From: Allomyces arbusculus
Lineage: Eukaryota > Blastocladiomycota > Blastocladiomycetes > Blastocladiales > Blastocladiaceae
Assembly: GCA_027604705.1 (NCBI GenBank)
Contig: JADHYV010000045.1
Span: forward strand, 123,955 to 187,954
Length of the DNA stretch: 64,000 nucleotides
Direction of reading: 5' to 3'
The translations under genes and the position numbers were made by a program. The notes below the pieces were generated by a model that was not told the origin of the DNA, searched no databases, and saw only the letters and a program-made list of their open reading frames with translations. Shown piece by piece: positions 1-49,399 of this stretch (position 1 is the first letter of the stretch; the number at the start of each line of letters is the position of its first letter).

Positions 1-218
1 GACATCCTAACCCAACGCGGCTGGGTGGAGAGCGTTGCACGCTCTATTGTCGTAGCATGTAGTGAAAATCAGATCAGGACGTTTGCTCTCTGCTGCTCAC
101 TTTACGAGAGCGGAACAGGCTTAGACTCAAACCACGAATTGCAAAGAAAAAAAATGCATTTCTGTCGCATCCAACCAAAGAGAGAACACCAAACGCGAAG
201 AATCAAACCGGATCGCAA

Positions 219-2220
219 TCAAAGATCGACGACGCCAACCGGGTTACCAACACCATCGAATCGGAGCGCATCATGATAGGTCGCACTGAGATCCATTGCC
301 GTTTTCATAGCCAAGACCCAGTTTTCACTCTGGTCAGCCCCAATACAGACCATCTCTAACAACTTCATCCTCTTCCCTTCGTGCTTGTCATCACCAAGAC
401 CCACTCCAGTCCCAAACAGACGCGCCAATCGTGGAACAATCCAACGCAGGTTCGCGGACGCGTCCAAGTGCCTCACCATCACTTCCCGTGTTTCACAGTG
501 CTTGAGGCCGAATGGACCCGCTTGGCACACGAGCGACACACTCGCTGGGCCCATCAACACGTACAAGTGTGCCAAGAAGGTAGCCTGCGTGTAGCGTTTG
601 CGGCGCATCTTGCCAAAGTAGTCGGCCACGCCGGCAAACGCGACCGGGTCGAGTTCCTCGGCAACTTTGAACAGGTTCTCCTTGAGGCCCACGCCAGCAC
701 ATCCCAACGCGTCCTCGCTTCGTGATCCGAGCAGCACCATTTGCAGGATCTCGCTCGGCGTCAACTTGCGCTGACACTTTTTTGCATTGCTCCGGATGCG
801 TTTGTGGTACCACTTCACGTCGTTGAGCTCGAAATTGATGAGTCTCCTGAATTAGCGCAAGTATCGGTCAGAAAACGATGTACCAAAAGACCTGCGTCAA
901 GGAATCCATCAAGGCGGGGGGTACGCACTCTGCAAAACGCAACAAAAACAAGAAATCGGCTGTAATCACGGTCCGGTTTGCCAAACGAGTTGCAGCTCGA
1001 CCTTTTTGCACGGTTTCGGAGCAATGGCCAATCAGTTCGGACAGCGACGTGGACGTGGAAAATGCGGCAAGCAACGAGTCGAGCTGCTCTGACGGGACAA
1101 CGTCCTTGGACTCGAGATACTCCTTGACAATCAGCGGGAAGAGTGACGGCTCAAGTGCCCAGTCCACGAGCTGTTGCCAGTGATCCCAATCAGCGGGTGA
1201 GTGATCCAAGCACCATTTCAGTCGACGGCCGGGTTGCTGAAGACGTACAAGAACGGGTCGACTATGGTGTGTCGGCTCATGCGACACGGCTTGTGGATCC
1301 ACACGAGCCCGCTTCGGTGCCGGACCGAGTTGGTCAGCATCGTCACGATCTTCCTCACATTCGCGATCGCGATAGCCGTGAGAGACGAGCAGCGGCGTGG
1401 GTGAACGGGACGAGGAATGGTCAAAGTCGAGCTGGAAAAATGGTGTTGGCGTCGACGAGCCCGCGTGCGGCGACAGCGGCTGCATCACGTCACAGTCCAC
1501 AACCAGCTCCAAGCCCGCGCGCGGCGGCAGCGGTGCAGGCGCCGAGATTAATTCCTCGGCTTCATCAAGAGCGTCCTCCAATTCGGAGAGCAGGCTTGAG
1601 TCATCGTTGTCAGACTCAGCCGTGTCATCGTCGTCACTGCACGTCGCACTGGCCTGCACCGTGTCGCTGCACGTCACGCCGGCCTGCGCATACAGTGACG
1701 CTGTAGCCCCCTGCGACGACGACTGGTTGATCACCTTGACAATCTGTTGTGCATTCACGCCATCCGTGGAATCGACGAGGGCGTGGTTCACAACGACGGG
1801 GTCGATCACAGTCGTAACCATGGGCGCGGCTGAAATCGAAGCAGTTGGTGGTGCGGGCTGCGTCGGGAAGAGGGCCAAGCCACGCAAAATGCTGCGCGTG
1901 AGAAACATATGATCGAATCGAGCGAGCTGCATCACGATCTTGTCGAGGAGGTCGTCGATAAGCTTCCCGAGGGCTGGATGGCTGTGGAACTCGGCCCAGC
2001 GGTCCAGTTGCCGCGCGACCACGGCCACGGCGTCGTCCATGTCGAGGTGCGCCCATTCTAAATTTTGCAGTGCAAGCGGCGTGGATGTTGGTGCCGATGT
2101 TGCAGCAGGTCCGGCAGCAACGAAAGTTAATGTCGCCAAGAAGTCGCTCGAAATCGTTGGACTTGGTGACGGCAGGTGCAGAAATGCGTCGCACGAATCG
2201 TGTCGCAGCTCTGTGAACAT
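219..2220 (-). CDS. Unrecognised two-exon protein, head to head with the Fanzor gene
   Basis: I do not recognise this protein. Proposed CDS is complement(219..846, 884..2220), 654 residues. The exon phases close (GT at 883-882, AG at 848-847), but the 37-nt intron is unusually short. The start is uncertain: 2220 is the first in-frame ATG, yet the frame stays open to about 2326, where a possible splice acceptor ends at 2323, so an upstream exon may exist. The N-terminal half is Ser/Pro/Ala-rich with an acidic run (SDDDDTAESDNDDSS in one stretch) and a basic PKRAR motif that could be nuclear. The C-terminal 200 residues are better ordered, beginning near KWYHKRIRSNAKK and predicted mostly helical by eye. 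It shares an intergenic region of about 0.8 kb with the Fanzor gene, which suggests, without proving, co-regulation or a common mobile unit. No transposase motif is visible. Confidence 0.5.
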
Positions 2221-2457
2221 CGTCTTCACAGAGGTTTTCGCCAAATGCTCGCAGGATGCTGGCGCACAATGGGAGGCTGTCGCCGTATTTTTAATAGCCG
2301 CAAGCGTCTGATGCCGGAGTGCCTGTCATGTCAGTTCAACGCCAGGTCAGACTCGCGCGACAGTGAGATTGGAGCCAAGTCAACGACCACTCCATGTCAT
2401 GTCCCTGATCCCTCCCCTCAAAAATAGATCCCTTTGATGCGCCTGATCGCTCCCTTC

Positions 2458-2500
2458 GATGTGCCGTCGCGGCGCTTCGAGGGGAGCGATCTTTGGGTGC
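2458..2500. repeat. 43-bp direct repeat, copy 1, with internal palindrome
   Basis: This copy is nearly identical to 2579-2621 (two mismatches by eye). The centre is an inverted repeat around a TCG loop (GCGCCG/CGGCGC arms in copy 2, one arm mismatch here). A further partial match to the left part of the unit lies at 2427-2443. The repeats sit between the two divergent genes, so they could be regulatory sites or part of a mobile-element end. Confidence 0.85.
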
Positions 2501-2578
2501 GAATCACTTTCTCGCTCGCGCACTTGAAGCGCAAAGCGAGGGGAGAAGAATGGAATCGTTGTGCAAATCGATCCCCTT

Positions 2579-2621
2579 GATGCGCCGTCGCGGCGCTTCG
2601 AGGGGAGCGATCTTTGCGTGC
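2579..2621. repeat. 43-bp direct repeat, copy 2, with perfect 6-bp-arm palindrome
   Basis: This is the second copy of the 2458-2500 unit, 121 bp downstream in the same orientation. It contains GCGCCG-TCG-CGGCGC and ends in GGGGAGCGATCTTTGCGTGC. It lies upstream of the TATA box at 2761. Confidence 0.85.
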
Positions 2622-2757
2622 AAAAACGTCGCAAGGGGCAAAGTGTGAGGCAAGGGACGACGTGCAAGACACGTCCCACTGCCGCACACAGACAGCCAGC
2701 ACACAATGATCAAACCTGGCATCAAGTCATGGTGCACACGGACATGGGCCACTTAGC

Positions 2758-2771
2758 GAGTATATATACTC
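2758..2771 (+). promoter_or_regulatory. TATA box of the Fanzor gene
   Basis: GAGTATATATACTC is a perfect palindrome holding TATATATA at 2761-2768. It lies about 250 bp upstream of the proposed Fanzor start, which would give a 5' UTR of roughly 220 nt. Because it is palindromic it could also serve the divergent minus-strand gene, although it is about 540 bp from that start. Confidence 0.5.
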
Positions 2772-3016
2772 GGGCATGCCCACGTCCACCACATCCGTCT
2801 TCATCTGGCTGCTCAGCAACCAATGTGGCTCAACTTCACCCTCCTCGCCTTCTTTCAGCTTCTCTGCGCCTGCTCGTGTCTCTTGCTTGTGCCTCTCATT
2901 CCTGTCGGCTCGCTCCTTTTCTACTCGACCGAGCAACTCGATCACCACCTTCTCCACCCGCAACTCTCTGCGGTGCGGTCTTGGTGCTCCATCAGGCGGC
3001 CTGTACGTCTCTCAAG

Positions 3017-6000
3017 ATGGCAAGCAGTGGGCCAGTTGGTGTCGTCTCCATGCGATTACGCCAGCTGCTCGACAATCGGCTGTGCACACCTCTTGTGCTC
3101 ACGCGTATCAACAATTGCGTCGTGTTTGCGTCGTTCTTCCACGCGCTGGGGTCACCATTTTTGCTGTGGTTTGTGCTCGATCATCACGAACGGTTATTAC
3201 GGCATCCGCTCAAGCTGAATGGCGAGTTACAAGATGTTGAGGAGTTGGAAGATGGTGACTATGACCGTGTCGAGATTGACCTGATCGAACAGGGGTCCAA
3301 CTACATGCAAAAGGTACGTCTGAATTGGTAGCTATTCAAAAAAAAATTGTTGTGATCAAATAACTGATTCTGGTGTTGCATTTTTCAATTTTCTGATAAC
3401 AGCTTGCCAACACGATTTCAGTTCCGCAAGGCACGACTCAACCAGTGCTTGGTTTTGCAGGCGCTGACATGAGTAAACGTGGGCTCAACAAGGAGTTTTT
3501 TCGGCCATACCACAACAGCCGTGTTGCCGCAGAACCAGTCTTGAATCGCTCGGGGGGATATGTGCATGTGCAGAATGGTGTTGCTGACAAGTGGTTCACT
3601 GATTTGAGCAACTACTTCAAGGAAGTGGGCAGTTTTCCTGAACTTCAAGCTGACCCGGACTCGGACGATGGTGCAGCAGCGATTGTGCAGCTTGTGGATG
3701 TGATTCTGGGCACAAGTCCTAGCCGGCGCAACATCCAGCAGCGCTTTGTTGTGCAAGCAGCGACTCTTTTCGCCAAGTACAGGGTTTTTGTTGCACAGCG
3801 TGAGCAGGATCCGCAGTACCAGGTCCAGGAAATGGGGGAACAGGATGTGGGCTCGCTCAATGACATGGGCATGATTGACAAGGAACGATATGACCAACTT
3901 GAACTTGACAAGGCCATGGATGATGACGACGACCAGCAGGAGCAGGTGGTACCAGCTGTGTTTCCGATTCCTCGGGTCATCCCAATCCCAACAAGTGATA
4001 ACCCTGTCTTGACCAAGGAGGAACGGCATGCTCACCGCAATGTCGTGCACAACAAGCGGGTGGAAGCGCGTCGTGCAGAAGGGCCAGGAAAGCCAAGTCG
4101 CAAGCGTGGGCGAAAGCGCAATCAGCATGATCAAGGACCAGCAGCTAGAACTGGTGGCTCCAGTTCAGGTCTCAACACGTCGCAAGGAGTGCAGCAGCAG
4201 TACTCGTGCAAGGGCGACACGAAGGAGCGGCTGTTGTCACCACATTTTGACTTAGAAAGTGGATCGGATTCCAATCAACCAAGATTGGTGCGCATGCCCA
4301 AGGAACAGCTCAATGAGCTTGTGCATGATTGGCTCGTCCGGATCTACACAGAGATTGCGCGTCTCCGGCGTGATGACGTGCGGCAACGTTTCATGGCACC
4401 AATCAATAATTGGATCCAGCTGGTCAAGGTGGTCAAGTCACTGGATGATGCAGCGCATGACTTGGCTGCACTGGACTGTGGGGTTCAGCCCAAGCCACAT
4501 GTCGCATTGGACCGTGATCATGTTGTGCTTTATCTGGTGCACACGCCAACGATTGTGCCCAATTTTGCAGCACATCGTGTGTTTGTGGACATCACGACAA
4601 CGATCACGGACCTTTGCATCCTGGCAAACACGATTGTCAATGGTGAAAAGGAGCATGCCATGGAAGAAGTCGAGGCCCAGAACCAGATGCATGGCACAGC
4701 AACGACATGGGATGACGTTCTGGCGGATTTCCAGGCGTTGCGGCAAGATTTTGCACGGGATCGAAGCACCATGCCACTGTTGCACAAGCAGTACCGAAAC
4801 CTCGACTATGTCCCGAAGACAAGGGGCAAAAAGGGCGAGAAGGCCAAGGTTTCGAGGGACAAGAAGTTGCAGGACGACAACGAGTTGATTCTTGATTGGA
4901 ATGGCAAGATTGACCACAAGTCGTTCAAGACTGATGGATACACGGCACAACTGTTGCGTTTGCACACCAACGACGCGGTTGCACATGCAAAGGCACTTGG
5001 TGGCGAGCTCAAGATTGATAAGTGGACCAAGCATGGGTCACGCACCAAGAACCGACGCAATGCAGCCCGTGGTTCGCTCAAGGCGGGTGGGTTTGACGAG
5101 TTTGCGCCATTTACGCTCAAGAACGTGAATCTCGCACATTATTCCGGAATACGTGTTATTGACCCGGGTCACCGCAGCTTCCTGACTTGTTTCGAGGCCA
5201 GCTGTGCTGAAGTGGAGGATTTTCTCGACCCCAATTTGGACATTGATGTGAACCTGGTGCTCGAAACGTGGGACAAGCAGTCGGGACCAAATTTGATCGG
5301 TTCCATGTTTTGGGACTTGTCGGGCTCACGTGCGCGGTATTGGAAGGGCGACGCAGCGCACAGCAAGGCCTTGACTGAGTTTTTTGCCAATGATGCAATC
5401 CTTGCCGCCTACATGCGCAACAAGCCGACGCTCAAGACATGCAATATTGACGATGCGCATGCGGCTATTTCGTACATGAGCGCGAACTTGTACAAGGTCA
5501 TGACGCGTGTGCTCGATAACCGTTTGGCCAAGCTCAAGTTTCGCAGGACCAATCGCGAGCGTGCGTTTTGGGACTCACTTGTTGACCGGATTGGACGCCC
5601 ACTCGACAACTCGGGCTTGCCACCTCTCATCATGCTCGGAAATGCAGGCTCGTGCAACCCGTTTGGGATCACCATGCCTGTCAAGCAGTTTGCACGCCGA
5701 CTCATCCATGCTGGTCTACATGTGATGCTTGTTGACGAGTATTGGACCAGCAAGACGTGTGCCAAGTGCGGCCACAACATGGAGCAGATCAAGAAGGCCT
5801 GGGGGTCGAAGCGCTGCCACTATTGCAAGCGCATCCGTGCACGCGATCGGTCGGCTGCATTCAATATTTTTCGGAGTGGAGTGCGGGATGGCTTGACAGT
5901 TGAGGTGCCTCCGCACTGGCTGCACCACCCGCTTGCGCGCGCAACGTGGCGCGTGCAGGACGAGGACCAACAGGATGACGATGACATAGCCGTCGCCCCT

Positions 6001-7401
6001 GGCGACGGGGGTGGAGATGGCGATGATGGACATGGTGATGAAAGTGATCATGACCAAGGCCCTGGTGGTGGAGGCGGTACTGACGGCGACACGGACGATG
6101 GCGCCAACGACGACGATCTCGCTGAGCAAGGGGATACCAAGGAAGAGAAGGGGGACGAGGGCGGGGAAGAGGAAGAGGACAACGGCGAGGATTCCGACAA
6201 CGGCGGGAGCAGCGGGAGTGGCGACACTCAAGACGATGACAATTCCGACGATTCTGAGGTGGATGCAAGTGCGACGGCCATCGCTTTGAAAAGCACGAAA
6301 TCGGCATATGTACCTCGGCAACGCGCGCAGCCACTGCCACCGACGAGGAGAACTTCCACGCGCTCGGCAAGCACCGGCACTCGGCACTTTACACATGGCA
6401 CGACGACTCGACACGCGACAACGGGGGCCATGCCGCGCAGTGCTCGGTTTCGAGCTATGACCGGTGTCGCGACATCAGGGCCACCACTACCTCCGCCTGG
6501 GCCTGCGAAGCCAGCCACGGCCCCGACACCGAAATTGAAGCCAGCCGGCTTGCATGCGCGGCTGAAACGGCCCAAACGGTGGCTACCAGAACCGACTGAG
6601 TCGCCTGCACCCAAGGTTGACCATGGTCATGACGCGCTGACTTGGGCTCGCCCGCGCGGTCAAGGTCACACCAAGACGGCAGCTCGGCCGCCGCCACGGA
6701 TCGCCCCACTGGCACTGGCCGTGGACGAGGCACCAGCTCGGTCCAGGAAAAGCACCCGTGACACGCAGACAGTGGTTGCAATCAAGTCGACCAAGCCGTT
6801 GGTCACGGCAGCTGCACGCGCGAGTACCCGCGCAGTGGCAGCAGCGGCCTCAGCAGCGATTACGCTGCAATACGGACCACTAGAACCACGCCCGAGTCGC
6901 ACCGCCCCCGTTCTTTCACCACCCCCGAAGCCGTCAGGCGCGACGCCCGCACGCGCAAGTAGCCGTGCAGCGGCAGCTGCGGCCTCAGCGGCGATTACGC
7001 TGCAATACGGACCGCCGATCCCGATTCTCCAAGAACGTTCTGGCTCGAGTCGCGGCGCGTTGCAAACCCTCTCTGGTCGCCGTCGGCAAGGTTCCGAAGA
7101 TTCGGCAAGCCCAAGCCCGAGCAATACGGCAGTGCCATCAGCGCGCGCGACTGGGAACCCGGTGACAACCGCACGGACGGCACGGAAACGGACAAGGGCA
7201 GCAGCCACGTCGTCGGATCGCGACAATAACGGCAGCATGGAAATGGAAACCGATCCGTCTTTTCATGCTGCTTCCCGCCGTCGCACGCACACTCAGGCCG
7301 CATCGTCATCGAGTAGCAGCATGAGGATGTCGTCGCAGCATGCTCGCCGCCACACGTACGACGACGACTTTGACGTCTTCGCCATGGACGTAGACCGCTA
7401 G
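3017..7401 (+). CDS. Fanzor (eukaryotic TnpB-like) RNA-guided nuclease, very long form
   Basis: Proposed CDS join(3017..3313,3403..7401), 1431 residues; the 89-nt GT-AG intron closes in phase 0. Known family role: Fanzors bind a guide RNA made from their own 3' region and cut DNA, often inside transposons. Visible motifs: RuvC-I VIDPGH with Asp686; a RuvC-II strand (LIMLGNAG) without its usual Glu; an alternative Glu878 in VDEYWTSKTC; a C4 zinc ribbon Cys885/888/904/907; RuvC-III RDRSAAFNI with Asp914. A basic cluster RKRGRKR near 333 could be a nuclear signal. After the nuclease comes a long tail: a Gly/Asp/Glu-rich block (about 950-1050), then Pro/Arg/Ala-rich sequence with a duplicated AAITLQYGP segment. 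The tail is unusual; Fanzors commonly end soon after RuvC-III. An alternative start is ATG 3469. I call it Fanzor1-like from the zinc-ribbon style. Confidence 0.9.
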
Positions 7402-7415
7402 TCGGACAGCGACTA
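7399..7415 (+). other. Perfect hairpin overlapping the Fanzor stop codon
   Basis: TAGTCG-GACAG-CGACTA forms a 6-bp stem with a 5-nt loop, starting at the TAG stop. Fanzor and TnpB guide RNAs are made from the 3' end of the gene and its flank, so this is a candidate piece of guide-RNA scaffold. A short hairpin can also arise by chance, and no element boundary was identified to place a guide segment. Confidence 0.35.
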
Positions 7416-7828
7416 CCGCGGTGGCGACAAGGAGTGATGATGAGAGTGACGACAGGAGCAGTGAAGCGGATTGACGAGAGCATCGCCATCGACCATGGCT
7501 GGCGAGCCACTCCGATCAATGGTACTGGTCGCGAAGGTTGATGGCAAGGGCGCGGACCCAAGTGCCCAGGTTGGGACAGCAGCGGTGTCGCGTCTTTTGG
7601 TGTTTGTGATTGTTTGAGGTGCGCCGTGGCTTGGTTCTAAGTTCGCGGTCATCACCATATGCATTTTGATGCAAGACAGATGCTCCCTGCTCTTCTGTTT
7701 TGAATACAAGTATGTTTCGTGAAGATGTATATTCTGAAATGTAAAAGTGTGAATCTGATTTGAGCGCGGAAAAAAGGGGGGCATGCACGACAGCGCAAAA
7801 CAGAGTAAAAACTTTGGAGTTCAATTAG

Positions 7829-7900
7829 TGCCGCAGCCGTGGATCGAACACGGGACATCCCGCTTACAAGGCGGGCGCTCTGCCACTGAGCTACAACGGC
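7829..7900 (-). tRNA. tRNA-Thr: tRNA-Thr, anticodon TGT
   Basis: Read on the minus strand, a full 72-nt cloverleaf starts GCCGTTGTAGCTCAG. It has a D stem GCTC/GAGC, an anticodon stem CCCGC/GCGGG with loop CTTGTAA, and a T arm CCGTG-TTCGATC-CACGG. The acceptor stem has one T-T mismatch and one G-T pair. The anticodon TGT reads ACA (Thr). There is no intron. A T run follows on the minus strand about 20 nt downstream (complement of 7807-7811), suitable as a Pol III terminator. Confidence 0.95.
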
Positions 7901-8808
7901 TTGATAACAAGATATCAAATACAAAATATCAAACTTGAAAAAGTGATAACGTTTGATCTGGAGTACTGCAATTAACGCCGCGCTGCGCCTCCTCTATTGT
8001 AAACAAACTCATTGATTTCAGTTCCACTATGATAATCGCAAGCGAAGCGTGCGATGCGGCCCAGGTCGCCCCAGGGGGACAGGGACATGGACATTGGATC
8101 TGGCAGATATAACTCAGGCAGTGGATCTCTCGTGGATCCACCACTCAAACAGGGCCCAATTTCAGCGGATGAGTTTTCCTGTCGGTCTCCATCTATTCTG
8201 TCGGTTAGTCTTGGGGGAACAGCCTTGGTGCCCTTGTGGGGTGGGGTGACTTGTAATGTCTGCCCACCAGCAAGGCCGCCCAACACACCACTTCTCATCT
8301 GTTCGCGCCGCCCAGCACCTCCCAAAAAAGGAAACAGGCTTCGTCGGCCGAAAGGGAGCAGGGGAGCCGCGAAGATGACGGCAGGAATAAGGATCAGGAG
8401 GTCGTCAGTGGCTGGATGGACGACACAATGGAGTGGAGAAGAGAGAGTCCATTCTTACAACTTGATATAAAATCAGTAAGGAGAGGAGGAGGTGAAAGCT
8501 GTCCGCTTTTGCATTAAGAGACTGGACGCGCGCCGTCCTGGTTCCTGGCTGATTGCTCTTCATGGCCTATGGTTGCCTTTGTCTGTGATTTCATCTTGAA
8601 CAATGGAAAGTGCTTTAGTGACAGGCGAGATGCTTGGCGATCGTTGCTTCATCGTTTGGCTTCAGTGCACCATTCTCCCTCTTCTTTGCAAGCGCAGACC
8701 GGCGAATCAAGCCCGAATGAATATCTACTGCAGTTGCGTTGTGGGGACCAAAATATACAAGCACGCTGCTCTCCTCTTCTCTTGTCTGCACCTGCCGCTC
8801 AAGCGGTC
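7901..8808. other. Intergenic, no supported gene
   Basis: Only short open frames without recognisable motifs are present. There is a small inverted repeat around 8119-8145 (AGTGGATC and GATCCACCACT arms). The right end is presumably the 3' UTR of UBC12. Confidence 0.5.
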
Positions 8809-9506
8809 TTACATGACCTTGTCGTACTGGATGCCGTCGTGCGACCCGCCGCGCAACGTGCGCGATACAATCTGGGCAAAGGTCTGGCGGTTGGCGCGGA
8901 GCGAGGCGGCAGCGGCTAGATAGATCATCCAGTTCGAGTTCGTCGCGTCAGTCTCAACCCACCCCATTCCGCATCACGTCGCCCAAATGAACACGGTACC
9001 CTTGTTGAGCGGATCATCGGCATTCGGTTCCAGGAACAGGTACTGCAACCCAACGAGCACGGCGTTCAGGTTGAGCACGGGCTTCCAGTCCTCGCGCAAG
9101 ATGTTCAAGCAAATCTTGCCGTCGACGTCAATGTTTGGGTGGTAGATCTTGTGCGTGCAGAGCACCTTGGGCGGGTCGTGCGGGTAGTTGGCGTTGATGT
9201 CGAACGTGAACGTGAAGGAGGCGCCCGTGTAGAACCCTTCGTCGGGCGTGATGGTCACGGTGAAATGCAGAAGGTCGTTTGGGTCCGGGTGGTGCATCGA
9301 CATGGTCTTGGGCAGGTCGAGCTCGTCGAGGTCTATCGCGGCGTGGGTAGATGGGTTGGTCGTCAGCCGCGGTGTCGACGATGCGTGCTGCGCGCGGTCA
9401 AGCGGCACGCACCCTTTTGCACGCGGATCTGCGCGGCGGAGACGGCCGATTTCTTCTTGTCGGCGTTTTCGTGTTTTTGCTTGCGCAGCGAGCTGATCTT
9501 GATCAT
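8809..9506 (-). CDS. UBC12: NEDD8-conjugating enzyme Ubc12 (UBE2M)
   Basis: E2 enzyme that takes NEDD8 from the E1 and passes it to cullins. Proposed CDS complement(8809..8915, 9000..9332, 9413..9506), 177 residues; human UBE2M has 183. All phases close with GT-AG introns of 80 and 84 nt. The N terminus [11 protein letters not shown] matches the conserved Met-Ile-Lys docking peptide that binds the E1. The UBC core follows with the HPN motif (YHPNI at 95-99) and catalytic Cys106 in [11 protein letters not shown]. The C-terminal exon supplies [11 protein letters not shown], matching the last helices of the family. It lies tail to tail with the tRNA-Thr and divergent from the next plus-strand gene, whose start is about 0.7 kb away. 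Nothing looks broken. Confidence 0.96.
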
Positions 9507-10240
9507 GGTGGGCGGGGTGGGGTGGGGTGGGTTGCGACGGTTGGCAGGCCGAGGTCGGGTGTGGTGCGTGTTGACGCCGGGGGGTTTGCGCGATCGGGCG
9601 GGTCGAAAACGCGGGAAGCGGGTCGCAGCGGCGGTCGGTTGGGTCGGCAGGCGGATGCAGCGGGTCTTGGTCCAAGTCGCGGATGGGTGCGGACGGAGAG
9701 AGCGTCGCTCGCGGCTTCAGGTCGCCGACGGGTCCGCGCGGTCTGGTGGTGGACCAGCTGCAGACCCGGGAGAACACGTCACTCGCGCGTGCCGGCAGGG
9801 GGCGCATGCAGCGCGTCACCCCATCGCGCGCGCACCTGACGAAGGAGCGCCGGGGCGAGTCTGGGCGCGAGCGATCACGAGCCACCACACGCGACCGACC
9901 CGAAAAAAGACGCGCCACTGCCAACGCCGCCGTCGGCGGCCGCGGCGCACGGGCGCACCCACCGCGCGCCGGCCCGTCGTCGACGCCGACCCCCACGCCG
10001 CCGCACCCGCGCGCCCCCACGCCCACCACTCGGCGCAGTGCGCCGCCCGCCACGCCCGCCGACTCCTCCCCCGCGCGCACGCCGCGGTGCCGTCGCGCCA
10101 GCCGTCCCTTTCAGACCGGCCCCGGTGCCGCCGTTCGGCCCCACGCGCACCGTCACCCCATTGCTTGCCGCCGCTTCCATTGCCTGCGCGTCCGCGTCCG
10201 CGTCCGTGGGCCGCGCGCACGCCGTCGTTCTCGAGAGTGC

Positions 10241-13200
10241 ATGGCCTCGTCCGCCGCCGTCGGCTTCGGCAGCAGCAGCGGCAGTCTGCCAGTCAGCCGC
10301 GGTGCTGGCCCGAGTCTCGACGCCGACGTGCTGCACCATGTCAACTCGCCGCGCCTGCTGCCCACGAACATCTCCACCACCACGCTCACCACCGACAAGC
10401 TCCCCGCCGTCCTCGACGCGCTGCCGCACCCGCGCGTCGACGCGCCCAACCACCGCAAGCTCACGGCCTCGCCGCCAACGCACTCGCCCTCGCCGCGCCT
10501 GCCGGCCCTTGCGCTCCGAACCGATCTCAACGCTCCACGGTCCCCGTCGCGCCACCGCACCGCCTCCACCGCGTCGACCTCGCGCCGAGCACGCATCTCA
10601 GCAACTGCCAACGCGCCCGCTCACCTCTGGTCGCCGCGGCTGCTGAATGCCGCCGCGGCCGATATGGGCCACCCGGACGACGTGCCTGTCGGTCCCTCCG
10701 CCTCGTCGTCGTCGACCCACGCGCGCCGCCGGTCCCTGCGCATCGTCCCGACCACGCCTACCGCATCTGCACGATCGCACTCGCGCGCACCGCCCGCCCC
10801 ACATCCAAGAACACGCACCCCGTCGGCATGGCGCCGCGCGTCCGCGTCGTCGACATCCACCACCGCATCCACCGCGTCCTCGTCGTCATCGCATGCCGCG
10901 GGCACTGCCGCCGCCCGCGCAGGCGCCGCGGCTGCGTCCACCTTGACCGCCGCGATCCGCGCGAACCGCATGCTCGCGGCCGACGACGACGACGGCGCGC
11001 CCTTCTCGCACCATGCGGCACTCGCCTCGATTTCCGCGCGCCAGCCGTTGCCGTTCGTCTCGCTCGTCCCGCCCGCCGCCATCAACACCGACGCGTTTGC
11101 CCCGCCGCCACCGCCCAGAACCGTGCGCCGCAGGGACCCGTCAAGGCGCGGATCGACGCACGCGTCCCGCCCGCCACCAACCGTGCGCGCACGGTCGGTC
11201 CGGCGCACGCCAACGACGGCGGTAGTGGCCTCGGTGGCAGCGGCAGCTCCATGGCCTGCAGCCGCATTGTGGCGGCACTTGGTCGTGCAGGCCCGGCGCG
11301 CGCAGGCGGACGTGCCGCAGTGGGTGGATGCGGTACTGGTCCAGCCGTCACGCGCGGCGCTGCAGCGTGTCGCCGAGCTGGCGACGGGCCAGGTCGCGAC
11401 GGCCGCGCAGCGGATCTTGGATCAGGATGAACGGGTGCCGGGGTTGATTGCCTCGATTCGGTACGGTTTCTTGTCCCCGTTTGTGAAGAGGGCGAGCTAG
11501 TTTCCTGACCGAGCTGATTTTGGTGCTGTAGTCGCGAAGTCCGCGCTCGTCGCGACGCACGGACCTCCGCCTTCCGCCGCCGCGGGGACTCGGTCGCCCC
11601 CACGATCTCTCGACGGCGCGTGCGTGCGCGGTCCCGCGCACCTGGTGCTTCTTCTTCGTCAAGGGGTACCAGCACGCGCACGACGTCCGTCGCCAATACC
11701 GCTCCCGCATCGACCGCTGGCGACCTGGACGACGTCGACGACGAAGTCCCCACGTTACGTGCGGCCGGACGCATGGCAAGGCGCATCGTCGCCGCGCTCG
11801 CGGACCGCGCGACCGTCCGGTGGCGCGCACTGCCGACGACCGTCGCGAATGGGCCGTTTGAGGCGCTGGCCGCGGCACTCGCGGACGCGATGGCGATTGA
11901 TGAGCCGCCGCCGTTGGCGGTACCCGCGGTCGTGGAACCGGTGAGGCCGGATCGCCGTGTACAAGAGAGTGGGACGCCGCCGGTCGCGAGTGCGGCGGAG
12001 GGGGGAGATGCGCGACGGCTTGCGGTGCCGCAGGTGGTGATGAACGGGGACGGGTACATGACCGTGGACGACAGCGAGGAGGACGATTTAACGATGATAC
12101 CCGCCGTGGTCGTCGTGGCCGCGTCGGACGTCGGGCGCGTACACGAGGCTGGCACACCGACCAGTTCGCGTCTTGCGTCGCTGGCAGGGTCCCGTGCCGG
12201 ATCGCCCGCCCCACCGCCGCCGTCACCGTTGCCGACCCTCGCTTCGCCACCGACGGCCCCGCGCGCACGGACGTTGTCGAACACGTCGACCACGTCCGTG
12301 GCACCCGCGCCCACCATTCCGCGCACCGCATCCCCCGCACCCGCACCCGCACCCGCACCCGCACCCGCACCCGCACCCGCACCCGCACCCGCACCCGCAC
12401 CCGCACCCACGCTCCTCGCCCCACCCCCCGCCGCCCCACGCGCACGGACGCTCTCCAACACCTCGTCCACTGGCGCGACCATCGGCGGCGGCGGCCACCA
12501 CGCCGCCGCTCCGTCCTCTTCCCCACCACCGGCCATGCCCAACCCGGACCCCGACGCCATGTCCGACCTCGCCATCGAGGACGAGCACGGCACGCACCCG
12601 GTCCCGGACCGACGCACGTCCCTCGCTCCCGCGCCGGGCCCGTTGGCGATGATGGGCGCCGTGCGCGACGCGCCGATGGCCATGGACCCGGCCGCCGTGC
12701 ACCGGTGGTTGGCGGGGGTCGCGGCGCCGCCGGCCGCGGTTGTGTCGGCGGTTTCGGCGCCGGTGGGGGGGAGCGGTGGGAGGTCCCGGCGGCGCGGGGC
12801 GGGGATGATGCCGACGATCGCCGAGCACTCGGACTCCTCCGATACCGACTCGACCGCGTCGAGTTCCGCCGGATCCATCACCACCACCACCGCCACCACC
12901 ACGCGCTCGCCGACGGCCAAGTCCACGACGACCGCGACGACGACCGCGTGGGCGGCCGACCTGGCCGCGCTCGTCGATGCCGCACGCGCCGCGTTGCAGG
13001 ACGCACGCCGTGCGCAGGATGCGGAATTGGCCGCGCATTTCGCGCTCGGGCTGCGGCTGGGGAGGTGCGAAAGGCTGGTTGCGGAACTGGCGGCGGCTGC
13101 CGACGCCGCGGATGCCGCCCTGGCGAGGGTCGGCGGGTGGCGGGACAGGTTTGCGGCGCTGGTCGACGAGATTCCGGGGCCGCGTGAGGCCGGGGAGGAC

Positions 13201-13263
13201 GAGGAGGATCGAGAGTGTGGGGAAAATGAGGAGGAGTTGGAGGACGAGTGCGATGACGGGTAA
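10241..13263 (+). CDS. Pro/Ala/Ser-rich protein with C-terminal acidic tail, unknown function
   Basis: I do not recognise a family. Proposed CDS join(10241..11460,11532..13263), 983 residues. The intron has donor GTACGG, a CTGAT-type branch and CTGTAG acceptor, and the phases close (CG|T). Start ATG 10241 follows GC-rich leader sequence. Most of the protein is low complexity. A helical patch (about 355-405) contains RAALQRVAELATGQVATAAQ, and a second one (about 420-460) contains MARRIVAALADRATVRWRA. Then come an Ala-Pro hexanucleotide-encoded run (12333-12409), a His/Thr/Ser region and a final Ala/Leu-rich helix, probably coiled coil (about 880-950), before an acidic end EDEEDREC...EEELEDEC. 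A structural or scaffolding role is possible but not shown. Long opposite-strand frames over this gene are GC-driven shadows. Confidence 0.65.
12333..12409 (+). repeat. (CACCCG)n microsatellite coding for Ala-Pro repeat
   Basis: About a dozen uninterrupted hexamer units in frame inside the 10241-13263 gene, translated as alternating Ala-Pro. It is likely length-variable between strains. Confidence 0.95.
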
Positions 13264-14513
13264 GGCGGCCCGACGGCCCACGCGCGTGCCGTGGCCGTGG
13301 CCGTGACCGGCGCTGGCGCCGGCCAGACGGGTTCGAGGCACGAAGGCCGAATCCGAGGCATGCGCCGGCACGACGACACGACGACGACGGGATCGCGACC
13401 TGCGTCACGCGTTGGATCCAGCGCCCGGCCTTCGCCGGGTCATCATCATCATCGTCATCATCAACGGGAAGGAACGGAAACCAAGGAACGGGCGCCAGCG
13501 CATGGCGCGTTGCGCGCGGCCCGCAGACCAGGCGGTGCGATGCATGCACGGCGGCGGGCCAGGCCACGTGCGTGCCGTGCGCCGTGCGGTGCGACTCAGT
13601 GGATCGCGTGTGGTTGCGCCAGCCGGCCGCGGCCTCCCCGGCCGCGACCACGGCGGAGCTGTGGCACGGCGTGGCGCAGTTTCGCGGTCCGGGCCTGGCG
13701 GACGCGCCACGGCCAGCGCGCGCGGATCCGGTGCATGCGGCGTGACGCGCTTGATGCCCTCAAGATCGCGTCGCGCCGCGTGGGTTGTATCGACCGGCCC
13801 GTGTGTGCGGGAGCGTCGCGTCAAGCTCATGTATCTGTCTCATACAAGCGGCCACAGGCCTGTTTGTCCACATCGTCGCGTAGTTATCAAGCAATATATC
13901 CATAGACACTTGGGGTGCCTCATATCATCATTCGCGCGCCGTCCATCAGCGTCGGCCGTCAAATTCATGAAGCGCGGCGCGTTTCCTTGGGCTCAGCGTC
14001 AGGGTCGGCCGGGATGGGTCAAGATCGTATCGGGCAGCGTTCACCTCGTCGCGACCGCCGATCCTTCGAGGTCGTGCACGGCTGCCACCGGTCGCAACCG
14101 GCTCGCGCGGGCGACCGCCGATCATGCTCGCGCGCATTCGCTTCTGCTGGTTGTCCGATGGGGTGGCCTCGCGCCGGAGCCCGAAAACGACGAGGGCAGT
14201 GAGGGAGGGAGATGGGTGGAGAGGAGGTGCCGGCCTCTCGCCTCGTGGGAGGGCCCCACCGACCGGTGCCGAGGGCCGGCCGGCAGCCGGCCGCGCCCGC
14301 CTGCTGCACGCACACGCACGCGCGGCCGGCGCTCGCCATCGAAAACCGGCCGCGAGGCGCCGCCGCCGGCCGGCCCCGCGCGGCAGCGCAAGCCGAATGG
14401 GACCGCATGCCGGCACCGCACGCAGAGTCTGCGACCAGCTCGCGCGTTGTCTCTCTCGCCCCACGCGCCCGGCCTGCAAGTTTGGACTGCACGACATCAA
14501 CACGATGGACCAG

Positions 14514-26529: not shown

Positions 26530-29500
26530 TCAATACGTCGTCGCGCCGTCCTCATCGTCATCCTCGTCCTCCTGCCCGACCCCATACTCATCCCCAATGT
26601 ACTCGCTGCCATACCCCATCCCATCCTGCTCCACTCCACCACGCGTGCGCGGCGTCCCGGCCACCGCATGCCCCCCCGCCGCGCCCCCGCCGCGCTGGTA
26701 ATACGACGACAGCCGGTTATAGAACTTCTGCTGCGCGATCGCGCGGTCGCCGAGCCCCAACGTCCCCGCTGGAATAAACGGCGGCGGCCCGTCCCACCCC
26801 GCGCCGGCTGCGGGGTCCGCCACGGGGTCCGCCATCAACCGCTCCTGCGACGCGACCCGCCGCGCCGCCGCCGTGACGGGCGCGCGCGCGGGGGAGACCC
26901 CCATCGCGGGCCGCATCTGCGCCATCGAGACGGGCCGGCGCATCGCCGGCGTTGCGAGCGGCGGCGACCGCGCCGTAACGGGTGCAGGGGCGCGGCCGCG
27001 CGAGACACCGCGCGGGTCGGTCGTGGTCGGACGCGCGGGCACGGCAGTGCGCGTTGGGGCCGATCCAACGACGCCGCCGCCGCGCACCGTGCGTGGGCGG
27101 TTCGAGACGGTGCCCAAGGACCCCATGGGCTTATCGGGCCCGCGCTGCAGCGGCACGTCGGCGCGCGAAATTGGGCGCGCGCTCGGTGCCCGTGCACCCA
27201 TACCCCCGCCACGAACCGCCGCCGGCGCGCGACCACGGATCGGTGCCGCCGTGGGCACTGGCGCGGTGGCGCCGGGCCACCCATAGTCGTCACTGATGCG
27301 CGACCTCCGGTCATCCTCCTCGTCCTCGTCGTCGTGCGACCGCGACGAGTGCGTGCGCGACGACGCCGACCGCGCCGTCATCGGCGGCGTGCGCGGATCA
27401 CTGCGCAGCATCCGCGCGCCGGCCGACTGCGGCCGCGCATACACGGGGATCCGCGACACGAATTCGCCATTCACCTGCATCGACGGCACGCGCAGTTGCG
27501 CTTGCTGCATCGGCGGCGAAGTCGGGGGTGCGGCCGCCCCCGCGGGGGAAAAAAAATCGGGCCGTGCCGTCTGCGGGCGTGCGGGCACGTCGAGTGCGCC
27601 GACGAGGTACTCGTCCGGCACGCCCATCAGCGCGGCCGGTGTGCCGCCAGGGCGCCGCGCATCCCACCCATCGTACCCGCCAGCGCTCGCCGCGGTGATC
27701 GGCGCAGGCACACGCGCGTACGGGTTCCCACCGCCCGGGCTGCCATACACGTTCCCGTTCCCGCCACCTCCGGCGCCATACACGTTCCCCATCCCCGCGG
27801 CAGCACTCCCCGGCCCGAACCCCGCGGGCACTGCACCGTACCCACTGTACCCACCCTCTGCGGCGGCAGCCGCAATCGGCCGCGCCTGCGTCGTGTACAC
27901 GTGCCACAGCACATCCTCGAGCCGGTGCCGGTACCGCTCCACGTCCAAGGTCGCACGCAACGCTGTCGGAGGTTTCTGGTGCGCGCGCGCCGCGGCCTGC
28001 GCGATCGCCGCGTAAAGCGTGTAGAGGCACACAGCAGCGGCCGCGAGCGCGCGGTCGTGAGCGACGAGTTTGCCGTGCAGCGTGCGCGCGCGGGACGCGG
28101 CGGCCGCGGCCGCTGCGACGGCGCTCGATTCTTGCGCGAGAGCGGGAGCGGGCGCCGCCGGCGTCGGAGTCGCGGTGGGTGGCGTGGCGTTGGCTGCAGG
28201 GGGTTGCGACGGCTGTGTCGGAATCACGGTGCCGCGGCCGGGCGCTGCCGTCGTCCCGACAACCATGGCGCCCGTCGTCGAGGTCAGGGCCGGGTCAGCT
28301 GGTGCGGGGGTCGGGACCGGTGTCGGGACAGGCGCGGCAGCGATCGGCGCCGGTGCGTCGTCGTGCGGCACGTCCGCGGTGCCCTCGGCCGCGGGCGCGA
28401 CGACGGGCGCGGCATCGGCGTGCTCCGACGCTGCGACCGACTTGGTCTCGGACGGGACCGAGCGCGTCGGTGCGGGCACGGGCAGTGCCGTGGCCCAGTC
28501 GGCAAATGACATGGCAGGCGCGGCCGGGGGCGCGTCAGTGTTCGTGACCGACGTCTGGGTATCTTCGTCATTGTCCTGCTCTTCTTCTTCATGGTTGCTG
28601 GTGGTTTCGTCATGGGTCTCCTCCGCATCATGCGGCTCCTCGTCGTGCTCGTGCTCGGCGTCCGATGCGTCCTCGACGGTCGCCTCGCGCTCGACTTGAT
28701 CGTCGTTAGTCTGTGGCGCGCCCGTCGCGACCACTGGATCGGCCGCGGCCGCCGGGGAAGGGGTAGCCGGAGCGGCGTCCGCAGCACCGACGTCACCACC
28801 CGGAGTGGGAACGACACCATTCGCGACGGTAGGCGGCGTCGTGGTGGTAGGTGCTGCCGCGGTTACCGTACTCGTCGCGGTCGGTGGCGCCGCCAGTTGC
28901 TGCTGCTGCTGCGCTTGTTGCTGCTGCTGCATCGCCATCATCCACGCCTGCTGCTTTTCAAACTGCTCTTTCACTAACTGCTCGACCAACGCGCGCTGCG
29001 CATTCTCGCCCTGCGTCTCCTGCGTTCGGATCCACGCCTCGTGCTCTTTCGCGCGCTGGCCCGCAGCGACCGCGCGCGCCACTTCCTTGGCGGCCGCGTG
29101 CGCACGTCTCAGCGTCTGGTGCCGGACGAGGTCGAGCACGTGCAGGTCGACCGCGACACGGCGCATCAGTTCGGCCAGGGCCGCGTGGTAGGCTTGCTCA
29201 ATGTCTGTCCACGCGAGCGCGCGGTACTGCGCGGTCGTTAGCGCGTATTCGGCCGGGGACCAGCCCGCGGGCGCGTGTGCGGCGGCCGAGCGGAGCCGGG
29301 ACCACGGCGCGGGTGCCACGAGCGCGGCCATATCGCGTGCGGGTACGGGCGGGGTGGGCGGGTCGGTCCATGTGCGCGACGCGCGTAAAGCGGGGTTCGA
29401 CCAGTCGAGCACGAGGTGCGCAAAGTCGTCCGTGTCGTTGGCGTCGGGGTCGTCGTCGCCCGCGACGGTGGCCAGGAGCGCGGCGGTCAGCGCGGCACGG

Positions 29501-29976
29501 ACGCTGTCGAGGACGGGCACAATGTCGTTGGCGAGGTAGGCGGGCAGGTCGCCGACGTCGGCACGGACCAGGTCGCTGAGCGCCGTCGCCGGATCGACTT
29601 GTACGAGTTGCTGGTTGTGCCGCGTGCTGCGCCGCGACCCGGCGACCGACGGCGGCGCGCGCCCGGCGGACGCGGCGGACGTCGACGAGACGTACTCGGC
29701 GTCGCGCACGTCTTCGTCGGGCAGCGACGAGTAGGCAAGGTCGGCGTCCGGGTCGATCGGGAGCAACTCGCCGCGGCGCACGGCCGGGAGTGACGAAGTC
29801 GTGGCGGTACGGCGCGTTGTCGAGTAGGCCGACGAGGCCCGGTCCATGATGGCGCGTGCGGCCGCGGCGCGGTGCGGGGCCGGCGAGGCCGTGCGGCCCC
29901 ACGCCGAGGGGGTCGACGCGAGCGAGGCGCGCGCGAGCGGGTCGGTCATGGCGTAAGAGGTTGGGGGCGGGTACAT
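26530..29976 (-). CDS. Large single-exon Gln/Ala/Pro-rich protein, unknown function
   Basis: A single 1148-codon frame with ATG at 29976; no intron is needed. I recognise no family. The N-terminal third looks folded and helical, including LVLDWSNPALRASRTW and DIEQAYHAALAELMRRVAVD. A coiled-coil segment then leads into a poly-Gln run (about residues 350-362). Next come a long acidic/His-rich region (HEHDEEPHDAEETHDET), Pro-Thr-Ala repeats, a second helical island (about 645-710, VCLYTLYAAIAQAAARA), and a Gly/Tyr-rich then Arg/Pro/Ser-rich tail ending in acidic DEDDDEDGATTY. This layout, ordered helices separated by disorder, suits a scaffold or RNP component, which is inference. It is divergent from the PH-like gene with 850 bp between starts. 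Confidence 0.75.
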   Translation of the reverse strand: MYPPPTSYAMTDPLARASLASTPSAWGRTASPAPHRAAAARAIMDRASSAYSTTRRTATTSSLPAVRRGELLPIDPDADLAYSSLPDEDVRDAEYVSSTSAASAGRAPPSVAGSRRSTRHNQQLVQVDPATALSDLVRADVGDLPAYLANDIVPVLDSVRAALTAALLATVAGDDDPDANDTDDFAHLVLDWSNPALRASRTWTDPPTPPVPARDMAALVAPAPWSRLRSAAAHAPAGWSPAEYALTTAQYRALAWTDIEQAYHAALAELMRRVAVDLHVLDLVRHQTLRRAHAAAKEVARAVAAGQRAKEHEAWIRTQETQGENAQRALVEQLVKEQFEKQQAWMMAMQQQQQAQQQQQLAAPPTATSTVTAAAPTTTTPPTVANGVVPTPGGDVGAADAAPATPSPAAAADPVVATGAPQTNDDQVEREATVEDASDAEHEHDEEPHDAEETHDETTSNHEEEEQDNDEDTQTSVTNTDAPPAAPAMSFADWATALPVPAPTRSVPSETKSVAASEHADAAPVVAPAAEGTADVPHDDAPAPIAAAPVPTPVPTPAPADPALTSTTGAMVVGTTAAPGRGTVIPTQPSQPPAANATPPTATPTPAAPAPALAQESSAVAAAAAAASRARTLHGKLVAHDRALAAAAVCLYTLYAAIAQAAARAHQKPPTALRATLDVERYRHRLEDVLWHVYTTQARPIAAAAAEGGYSGYGAVPAGFGPGSAAAGMGNVYGAGGGGNGNVYGSPGGGNPYARVPAPITAASAGGYDGWDARRPGGTPAALMGVPDEYLVGALDVPARPQTARPDFFSPAGAAAPPTSPPMQQAQLRVPSMQVNGEFVSRIPVYARPQSAGARMLRSDPRTPPMTARSASSRTHSSRSHDDEDEEDDRRSRISDDYGWPGATAPVPTAAPIRGRAPAAVRGGGMGARAPSARPISRADVPLQRGPDKPMGSLGTVSNRPRTVRGGGVVGSAPTRTAVPARPTTTDPRGVSRGRAPAPVTARSPPLATPAMRRPVSMAQMRPAMGVSPARAPVTAAARRVASQERLMADPVADPAAGAGWDGPPPFIPAGTLGLGDRAIAQQKFYNRLSSYYQRGGGAAGGHAVAGTPRTRGGVEQDGMGYGSEYIGDEYGVGQEDEDDDEDGATTY

Positions 29977-37038: not shown

Positions 37039-40000
37039 TCACGAATCCAACATGCTCGATTGCCGCCGCGTCCCATTTGATGCTCCCAGCGCCACGCTCC
37101 CGGCCATTCCCCGTGCTGCCGTACGCGCTGCTGCCGTCGCCGATGCAGAGCTTGCCGCCGATCCAAAACTCGCGCGATGCGACGAAACAGTTGGGGACGG
37201 CGCCGTTGGCGGTTTACTCGTGGTCGTCGCATACGGCCCATCGAGCACGAGCCGCGGGCGAGTCGACGACGGACGCGCGGGGGACACGAGTGCGTTTGGA
37301 GTTCCGCTTGGGACATGCGGTGAGAGAGCGAGGGCCGGATGCGTCGACGACGACCGGGCCCGCGTCGCGTGCGCGGCAAGCCGTTGGAGCCGCACGGTCG
37401 CGAGCACAACACGGAACGTCGTTGTGAGCGCCTGCCGCGGCGTCTTGACCGTTTGTCTGGAGGGCCGCGGGATCCCGAGTTCCTGAACTAGCCGCCACGA
37501 AGTTTCCTCGCTAAATATGTAAAGTGAAAAGTCAGAAATAATGGGTGAATCACGAGTTTGCGAAAAGAAGAGTTGCGCGTACCCTTGCTTGTACTTGGCC
37601 ACGACCGCCGTCAGGTACCGCTTCTGCTGCACGAGCGCCGCGCGGAACGTTGCCTCCTTGGCGTACCGCGCCTTGTACTGCTTGGTCCTCATCTCGAGCG
37701 CAGCCACCTCGCGCGTCGTCGCCGCCTGCCGGTCGAGCGCCTGCTGCTGCTCGGCTTGCCACTTGGCTTGCAACTTCGCAAAATACTTGCGCTCCTTGGC
37801 AATCTTGCGCGCCAGCTCGTCGCGCTCGCGCTCACGGCCAGCGTACTGCTCCTTGAGCGCCAACATGGCCTGCGCGAGATGGTGCAGCGATCGGCCGTCG
37901 TCCTCGGCGATGGGCGCAGCGGCAGCCTGTGTGACTCGCGCGGCCTCGAGTTGTGCAATCCGGTCCTGCGCGGCATCAAGTTGCCGGCGCACATTGGCAA
38001 GCGCCGCATCGAGACTGTCGCGTGCGCGTTCGTGGTCAAACTGTTGGCACAGCAGCTCCGTGCGTAGCTTTTCAATAGCCGTTTCACGCTCCATGAGCAG
38101 CAAATCCCTGTCATGCACGGCGTCGCGCAGCTGCTCCAGGGCCCGCTGGTGGTCGGTCAGCGACACCAAATCGGCCGGGTGGCCCGTGGATGTGGGCTCG
38201 TCGCCGTCGCGCGTCGTGTTGGCGGCCGCAGCCGCCGCGACCAGAGCCGACACGTCGATCGATCGCGAGGACACGTCGCCGTCAATGCCTGGGAGCGCAA
38301 GCCTTGTCGTCGCGGTCAGGGGCGAGCGCGCGTGTTGCGGCGGCGTGCGCGGGGAGTAGTGGCTGCGCTGCGACATCCTCGGTGAGCCCAAAGTCTGCCG
38401 GCCGTCGGAGTGCTCGTCTTCGACCATGGGCGCAGGCAGCGACGAGCGCGGCCGTCCACCGCGCGGCATCGTCGGCGTCACGTCTGCTGACGGCCCACGT
38501 GGACTTGTTGCCGCGGCGGCTGCCGACGCGGCGGAGCGGACGGCCCGTACTTCGTCTTCCATTTCTGCGAGCGCGCGATCCTGGTCGGCAATCACTTGCT
38601 CGTGGTGCGTGCGGGCCGCGACCAGTTCCTCGACCTCTTGCTTGAGCCCTTCAATCTGGTGCAGGTAGTCGCGCTCGAGCTGGACAAACTGCGCATGCTC
38701 GTGGTCGTAGGCACGCTCGCGGTGTGCAAGCTCATTGATCTTTTCCGTGACGGCCTGCTTGAGCTGCGCCGACTTGGACGTAATCGTGTGGAACTGCGAG
38801 ACGAGCGCCTGGTATTGCGCACGCAGCTCGGCAATCTGCTGGTCGCGAGCTGCCAGGTCCTGCTGCAACTTGGCCTTGGACGGGCCAGTCGACTCGGATG
38901 CGGCCTGCGCCGCGACCATGGCCTTGGCACGCTCGAGCTGCCGCTGCACGCCCGCGAGCTGCGTGCGAGTCTCGTGCAGCTGCGACTGCGCGAGGATCAA
39001 GTCGTGATCCTTGACCGCGAGCGCCTTGGTCGACTCGTCGACATCGACCTGCGCGCGCATCAGCTGCTCCGACTTGGCTGTCACCTCGGCCGCCGTCGCC
39101 TCCACCTCGCGCGTGAGGGCCTCGCGCAACGCCTCGCCGCGCGCGAGTTCCGCGCGAACCGTCGAGAGCTCGTCCTCGAGCCGCGTCACCTTCTCGGCCG
39201 CCGTGTCGCGGTCGTGCGTGAGTTGCTCGACCTGGTCGGCGAGCTGGTCGTGCGCGGCCGTCAGCGACGCGACACGGCCCATGGCCTCGACAAACTCGGC
39301 CTCAGCGCGCTTCCGCTCCACGGCGGCCGCATCGGCAGCCGTCTTCCACCGTGACGCTTCCTCGCGAGCCACATCGAGGTCCTTGTGCAGATCGGCAACG
39401 TCGGCGTCGCCCGCAGCCATTTGCAGCTGCTCTTGCAGGTGGATAAGCTCGTTCGTGAGCTTCTGCTTCTCCTGCTCGAGCCGGTCGCCGCGCGCCTGCG
39501 CGCGCTCGGCGGTCCTCTTCCAATCAGCGAGCTGCCCGGCCGTCTGGTCGAGTTCTTGGTTGAGTAGCCGGACCTCCTCCGTCTGTGCATGCAATGCCTC
39601 GCGCAGATCCGACGCTTCCGACCGCCCATCCTCGTCGTCCTCGCCGCGCGCCTCGAGCTCGGCGCGGGCCTCGTGCAGCAATGCGCGCGTCGCCTCGAGT
39701 TCCTTCTGTGCCGCAACCAAATCGGCGCGCATCGCGTCACGCGCCTGGTTGGCCACCTCAATCTGGTCAAGCAATTGCTCCTCGCGGTCGCGCAATTCCG
39801 CAACTTCCTGGTCCCATTGCGCCTCGACGTGCTTGACCTGCTCCTGCCACTTGGCAACATCGGCCTCGGCCGCCATTTGCTTGGTCAGCGCGTCCTCGAG
39901 CTGGTCCTGGACCGACGCGGCCAAATCGCGCAACTGCGCGGCCGCACGCGCCTGCTCGTCGCGGTCCTTTGCGAGGGCATCGAGTCGCTCGAGATTGGCG

Positions 40001-48806: not shown

Positions 48807-49012
48807 CTTGGTGCGTGCAATATCCGGTGCGCGTGGGGTCCTCGAGCGGCCAGCGCCGAGTCGATGCGAGTGCGGGGGGTCGCGAATGGCGGTGCTGGCG
48901 CTTGTTGTGCCGGTGTGTCGCGGAGCGCTGTTGTGGCCGACAGCAGGCGCGCCTTCGACGGCGACGGCGCCGGGGTTGGGTGGCGAGTGGCGGCAGTGGG
49001 CGAGTGGCGGCA

Positions 49013-49028
49013 GGGGGGGGGGGGGGGG
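49013..49028 (+). repeat. G16 homopolymer in a divergent promoter
   Basis: Sixteen consecutive G, followed by CGGGCGGGG. It lies between the starts of the ankyrin and GDSL genes and could form a G-quadruplex. Confidence 0.95.
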
Positions 49029-49399
49029 CGGGCGGGGCAAGGGCAGGCAGCGTGGCTCGACGATGACTCACTGGAGGCGACGCAAGGCTCCCTCCGGCAT
49101 GCGCTGGAAACAGTGTCCGGCGGAGCGTGTGCCGTGCCTGCCGGCCCGCTGCTGGCCTGTGGCCCTTGCGCTCGACAGCCTCTGCCGCTTGGGTCTGGTT
49201 TGTCGGTCGCATCGCGGTCACGCTTGGCTGCGTCATGCTCGCAAGACCCTCGATGCAGCACCACCGCGAACTCGTCCTCGACCATCGAAAATGGCCTGGT
49301 GCGGCAAGGACACGTCGCCGTCAAAAGGCCACAGCAACGCAACAGACAAGAACGATTGCACACCGGCTGCCAAGAATATCCCCAACTCTCTGCAACACG

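Follow-up and report, generated by a model that had tools for sequence, protein, structure and literature searches.

Fanzor gene and the identity of its nuclease body

The window analysed here, a stretch of 64,000 nucleotides (nt) of Allomyces arbusculus contig JADHYV010000045.1, contains a gene for a Fanzor nuclease whose reading frame continues for 481 residues beyond the nuclease body (Table 1). The spliced model, 3017-3313 joined to 3403-7401, is open from ATG to TAG and encodes 1431 residues, in keeping with the Fanzor of about 1430 residues proposed when the DNA was first read without database searches (the sequence-only reading). Four [CT]AG acceptors, all of them CAG, lie in 3341-3490, and the frame is kept to 7401 only with the acceptor ending at 3402. 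Exon 2 is by itself open to the TAG and is the longest open reading frame (ORF) listed for 1-12000 (3445-7401, starting at GTG). A significant homologue of the exon 1 product was not found. By eye, 11 further in-frame codons, mostly polar or charged, follow the TAG at 7402-7437 before the next stop is reached, as if the present TAG were a recent shortening.

Members of the Fanzor/TnpB superfamily share the motif D-X(125,275)-[TS][TS]XX-C4-X(5,50)-RD (PMC3627910; published reports are cited throughout from excerpts of their text). The protein carries D686, 194 residues, T881 S882 K T, cysteines at 885, 888, 904 and 907, 5 residues, and R913 D914. The cysteines and D914 agree with the earlier placement of the zinc ribbon and the end of RuvC-III near residue 925. 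The TNB zinc-ribbon domain of Pfam, PF07282, was matched at E 1.9e-8 with 34.8 bits (cut-off 26.3). Two features mark Fanzors, a DPG in RuvC-I and, six residues ahead of the zinc ribbon, an alternative glutamate (PMC10711439); both are present, as IDPG at 685-688 and as E878, six residues from C885, and the alignment column of the canonical TnpB glutamate has no E in this protein. The TDG motif in the WED domain is given as a mark of Fanzor1 (PMC10711439), and TDG occurs at 609-611, upstream of RuvC-I, a Fanzor1 mark by motif only.

For comparison, 81 prokaryotic and viral loci were fetched, yielding 78 TnpB-type ORFs by pattern, 75 of them closed by a stop, with near-identical ORFs kept. The spacing from the catalytic aspartate to the ribbon was 120-142 in all 24 viral-contig TnpBs chosen as controls among those fetched. 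A rough-pattern screen found a glutamate near the alternative position in 17/78 ORFs and DPG anywhere upstream of the ribbon in 2/78. Both marks occurred together in one screened ORF (L055), but at the RuvC-I spacing this ORF holds DLG; in another (L053) the DPG lies 126 residues ahead of the ribbon and the alternative glutamate is missing. On these domain and motif matches the protein is a Fanzor, predicted to be an RNA-guided nuclease, probably of class Fanzor1 and with an intact D-E-D site.

A sequence search of PDB placed the mimivirus Fanzor2 L79 (9b0l) first, at E 1.4e-4 over 72 residues around the zinc ribbon, and the Parasitella Fanzor1 (PpFz1) was matched weakly, at E 0.24; bacterial TnpB and Cas12 chains ranked between the two. 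A model of the RuvC/TNB region (5092-5970) was of moderate confidence, with a mean predicted local distance difference test score (pLDDT) of 62.7. Used in a fold search, it placed Cas12, TnpB or Fanzor-type nucleases at all of ranks 1-39 of 70, including the mimivirus Fanzor2 (E 0.0099), the Parasitella Fanzor (E 0.022) and the Spizellomyces Fanzor (E 0.38); E fell below 0.001 for 1 of the 70 matches, a Cas12f. The fold matches are counted only as supporting evidence, because the input alignment consisted of TnpBs and had RuvC-I misplaced. A core model as the basis of a fold comparison was rejected, the alignments having set the TnpB RuvC-I on the wrong stretch and the model being moderate. 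Sequence searches with the N-terminal part, to residue 565, gave nothing recognisable.

Searches of viral contigs with the core alone yielded none from 4 candidates. With an alignment of the core and phage TnpBs, at least 33 loci were obtained among 600 candidates, most of them matching around the zinc ribbon only. An alignment of the core with a segment of mimivirus L79 gave 5 of 98 candidates in viral contigs and 1 of 34 in prokaryotic genomes, the latter a Thorarchaeotal TnpB.

The C-terminal tail

The 481 residues beyond residue 950 are devoid of cysteine. As the sequence-only reading had described, an acidic Gly/Asp/Glu block is followed by Pro/Arg/Ala-rich sequence, and the repeated motifs it had listed were located: AAITLQYGP at residues 1250-1258 and 1295-1303, and KSTK at 1062 and 1227, with KSTR at 1215. 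Short tandem repeats are present within the acidic block. Basic clusters resembling nuclear localisation signals (NLS) occur in the tail at residues 1154, 1325, 1360 and 1391, with another near 332 in the N-terminal part. The extreme C-terminus, TYDDDFDVFAMDVDR, is acidic and aromatic, and its last residues, DDDFDVFAMDVD, resemble acidic activation-type peptides.

None of the 481 tail codons is a stop, as had been stated from the sequence alone; first-order Markov sequences matched to the tail in dinucleotide make-up had 9.85 stops on average, and 0/2000 were without a stop. In the basic block (378 codons) each of the five other frames has 5-10 stops; in the acidic block (103 codons) two minus-strand frames are likewise free of stops. 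The G+C content of third codon positions (GC3) was 0.61 in the nuclease body, 0.59 in the acidic block and 0.60 in the basic block, with second-position GC passing from 0.40 to 0.69. Three long ORFs nearby, picked by choice, had GC3 values of 0.82 (26530-29976), 0.78 (37039-42753) and 0.77 (47085-49040), the last two with Pfam domains. That the Fanzor frame runs on through the tail without interruption is well supported.

Several results weigh against the tail as a coding part of the mature message. The other listed ORFs of the window, which are not established genes, have GC3 values of 0.61-0.81, several of them as low as the tail (0.61-0.67). In a synonymous-codon test z was 4.4 in frame and ranged from 1.1 to 5.5 over the five others, and one minus-strand frame is closer than the real frame to the third-position composition of the body. 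The coding-like composition claimed previously thus stands as regards the steady GC3 of 0.59-0.61 and fails as regards synonymous codons, which do not favour the real frame. Codon usage was rejected as proof of the tail frame, since the real frame was not singled out. An intron removing the tail had been named in the sequence-only reading as fatal to its claim; strong splice donors (GTAAG, GTATG, GTACG, GTGAGT, GTACAT) are absent from 5501-7355, with one GTACG at 7356. This scarcity is not significant, with 1 donor observed against 1.8 expected in 5901-7398, and a search of 5701-7000 for weak GTGNGN donors located them at 5757, 5766, 5881 and 6269.

The sharp change of composition at 5956, the weak donors between 5757 and 6269 and the inability of codon usage to prove the frame are what an artefact of the gene model would leave behind, the tail being a separate host gene or intron-removed sequence and the real Fanzor ending near residue 950. 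One frame without a stop nevertheless runs across the join, where no strong donor is found, and from the RuvC-III helix to 7399 no in-frame stop could close a shorter Fanzor. The GC3 of the tail is that of the Fanzor body, unlike that of the three long ORFs nearby, even if equally low values occur in some further ORFs of the window, and tblastn of the window with low-complexity masking did not detect the tail a second time. An artefact of this kind is considered very unlikely.

The tail contains an internal duplication of 86 nt at 84% identity, the copies lying 135 nt apart. They differ at 14 sites, 7 of which are third positions; over 28 codons dN (nonsynonymous divergence) was 0.13 and dS (synonymous divergence) 0.35, a dN/dS of about 0.36. 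The protein of the duplicated module appears better kept than its DNA, which leans, weakly and on 14 changes only, towards a coding sequence.

Charge-hydropathy analysis placed 14 of the 18 50-residue steps starting at or beyond residue 951 on the disordered side, the acidic block most strongly. The structure prediction proposed with the sequence-only reading, made with AlphaFold2 from the single tail sequence, gave a mean pLDDT of 41 and contained neither a 4-residue helix nor a 3-residue strand, in line with disorder. The remaining 4 of the 18 steps (1201-1325, holding both alanine-rich modules) lie just under the disorder line, a portion of the N-terminal body (e.g. 301-375) is itself above it, and single-sequence AlphaFold2 would model many folded proteins poorly too; these points count the other way. 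On both predictions, the tail looks disordered.

Measured with a near-identical pattern to that used on the 75 stop-closed ORFs, 511 residues follow RuvC-III in this protein, compared with a median of 36, a 90th percentile of 52 and a maximum of 161 in that set. At least 100 residues follow RuvC-III in 4/75 ORFs, all from one Thorarchaeotal genome (L043, L047, L048 and L050). L043 and L047, with 161 residues each, are apparently one gene, and in L043 the Fanzor-like alternative position is occupied by a glutamate although RuvC-I reads DLG. The sequence-only reading had remarked that such a tail was not known to be described; a full-text literature search, with most subscription papers outside its scope, likewise listed no description of a comparable tail on a Fanzor or TnpB.

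The tail may be translated and yet idle, because neighbouring ORFs often show low complexity: the protein of ORF 26530-29976 is 61% P/A/R/S/T/G, and low-complexity protein is common among the long ORFs of the window. Such a tail would have arisen when a stop was lost or when slippage and duplication expanded low-complexity sequence at the 3' end, and it would be tolerated since the folded nuclease needs no tail to be complete. The 86-nt duplication and the tandem repeats of the acidic block fit this origin, as do the shorter, similar-looking tails on the Thorarchaeotal TnpBs. Bare tolerance seems insufficient, however, for 481 stop-free codons in an ordered layout that passes from acidic to basic, lacks cysteine and closes on an acidic-aromatic end, and the core of the duplicated module has changed mostly silently, though over 14 changes in all. 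This explanation, the main competitor of the one preferred below, is plausible, at odds somewhat short of even.

Surroundings of the gene

A separate domain in the tail was sought and rejected: searches with the tail returned from Pfam at E 10 only Nop14, at E 7.1, and from PDB one match, at E 1.6, both taken as chance; PHROGs at E 1 gave no match, and viral contigs yielded 0 of 6 candidates.

Table 1. Coordinates, in the window, of the features of the Fanzor gene and of its neighbours
Feature	Position	Strand	Basis or description
Exon 1, residues 1-99	3017..3313	+	ATG to GTACGT donor, open; codon-position GC 0.63/0.31/0.63
Predicted intron, 89 nt	3314..3402	+	AAG/GTACGT ... AACAG
Fanzor nuclease body, residues 100-950	3403..5955	+	PF07282; motif D-X194-TSKT-C4-X5-RD
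RuvC-I catalytic D686, inside IDPG (685-688)	5161..5163	+	motif
RuvC-II alternative glutamate E878, six residues ahead of zinc ribbon	5737..5739	+	motif
C4 zinc ribbon, C885 C888 C904 C907	5758..5826	+	PF07282, motif
RuvC-III catalytic D914	5845..5847	+	motif
Acidic Gly/Asp/Glu block, residues 951-1053 (103)	5956..6264	+	44 D/E, 2 K/R; net charge -0.41 per residue
Basic Pro/Ala/Arg/Ser/Thr block, residues 1054-1431 (378)	6265..7398	+	69% P/A/R/S/T/G; 58 K/R, 22 D/E
Duplication copy 1 (ARASTRAVAAAASAAITLQYGP module)	6793..6878	+	repeat search
Duplication copy 2	6928..7013	+	repeat search
Stop codon TAG	7399..7401	+	
tRNA-Thr	7828-7900	-	downstream of the Fanzor gene
Divergent two-exon gene, about 654 residues	219-2220	-	predicted 37-nt intron (883-847)

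No long terminal inverted repeats were found around the Fanzor gene in 1-14000; four flanking inverted pairs of 16-19 nt with mismatches in the same interval were taken as chance without a test. The Fanzor gene is the sole copy in the window and lies between the tRNA-Thr gene and the divergent gene. Together with the intact catalytic triad, this would suit a domesticated host Fanzor, a nuclease that left its transposon and acquired a host-derived nuclear tail. Detection would nevertheless fail for an element that extends past the portion seen or that has no inverted repeats, and the GC3 of 0.61, set against 0.77-0.82 in the three long ORFs nearby, is more suggestive of a mobile or foreign origin. 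Domestication is judged unlikely.

The divergent gene at 219-2220 had no Pfam match at E 5. Its GC3 of 0.65-0.67 is closer to that of the Fanzor than to those of the three other long ORFs, so that the two genes may be parts of one element. Between it and the Fanzor gene are two near-identical strong hairpins, at 2446-2490 and 2567-2611, within a 58-nt direct repeat of 90% identity whose copies are 121 nt apart (folding z -6.5 and -5.0); these are possibly regulatory sites or element ends. The omega-RNA of a Fanzor is looked for 3' of the ORF. Folding of five windows in 7402-7827 gave a best z of -2.1 (7460-7600), the rest ranging from -1.0 to 0.6, and no convincing guide-RNA scaffold was found by folding this interval. 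At the far end of the window, ORF 61873-63288 (GC3 0.61) scored 20.4 bits for a zinc-knuckle, just under the Pfam cut-off of 20.8, and is perhaps the remnant of a retroelement gag gene.

Proposed role of the tail and comparison with known systems

The explanation preferred here is that of one polypeptide, a probable Fanzor1 with its nuclease extending to about residue 950, followed by a 481-residue disordered tail working as a nuclear tether with an acidic brake; its probability is put at roughly 0.4. The tail would be translated along with the nuclease and, we infer, would bind nucleic acid or chromatin or mask activity. The basic Pro/Ala/Arg-rich half, with its NLS-like clusters, could retain the enzyme in the nucleus and keep it loosely bound to DNA, to chromatin or to the guide RNA of the enzyme itself. 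Acidic tails that restrain DNA-binding proteins are known, and the acidic block, situated between the nuclease and the basic half, may compete for that binding as an electrostatic spacer and brake, such that firm engagement would require a guide-matched target. The acidic-aromatic end might be a peptide on which a nuclear host factor docks. A wider proposal, namely a naturally tethered nuclease in which a Fanzor lineage has acquired a dedicated and regulated disordered tail that docks on chromatin or the transcription machinery under an acidic-block switch, and so constitutes a natural fusion effector, is improbable.

Research on Fanzors treats them as eukaryotic genome editors; to our knowledge it is an open question how they operate on host chromatin. 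With a natural Fanzor that has a long charge-split tail, one could readily test whether nuclear retention, chromatin access or specificity gains from an added disordered region. Even if the tail is idle, the gene is far above the Fanzor sizes given in the excerpted literature.

With the Fanzor1 proteins SpuFz1, PpFz1 and GtFz1 the present protein shares a RuvC with DPG and the alternative glutamate, the C4 zinc ribbon, RD and TDG. It differs from them in its N-terminal part (to 565), which is unrecognisable by sequence, in the 511 residues after RuvC-III, and in size: most Fanzor1s have 600-700 amino acids (PMC11423790) and some reach about 800 through internal insertions (PMC10711439), whereas 1431 residues are about twice the usual Fanzor size and lie outside the Fanzor1 range published in these excerpts, size being a usual and non-defining feature. 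Three Fanzor1 families are recorded for Allomyces macrogynus (PMC3627910). The mimivirus Fanzor2 L79 has in common with it EY-T-KTC around the zinc ribbon, and a likeness in IDPG-R-FLT that is not significant alone; L79 is a 520-residue chain, with the match ending at 514, whereas the present protein is larger and has the Fanzor1-type TDG.

Extra segments on Fanzors are known in other positions. NlovFz2 and MmeFz2 are described as having disordered N-terminal stretches, of 96 and 61 amino acids, respectively (PMC10432273). Precedent for a host-binding addition is provided by the FRI insertion of the Parasitella Fanzor1, demonstrated to bind the host protein cyclophilin; FRI is a small folded insertion of about 100 amino acids within RuvC (PMC11423790), unlike the 481-residue disordered tail at the C-terminus here. 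The Thorarchaeotal TnpBs resemble this protein in a low-complexity-looking extension (by eye) after RuvC-III and differ in its extent, 117-161 residues, and in the RuvC-I of L043, which reads DLG, not DPG. Because these TnpBs are tailed and nearby ORFs are often of low complexity, what is unique to the Allomyces protein is not the tail as such but its length.

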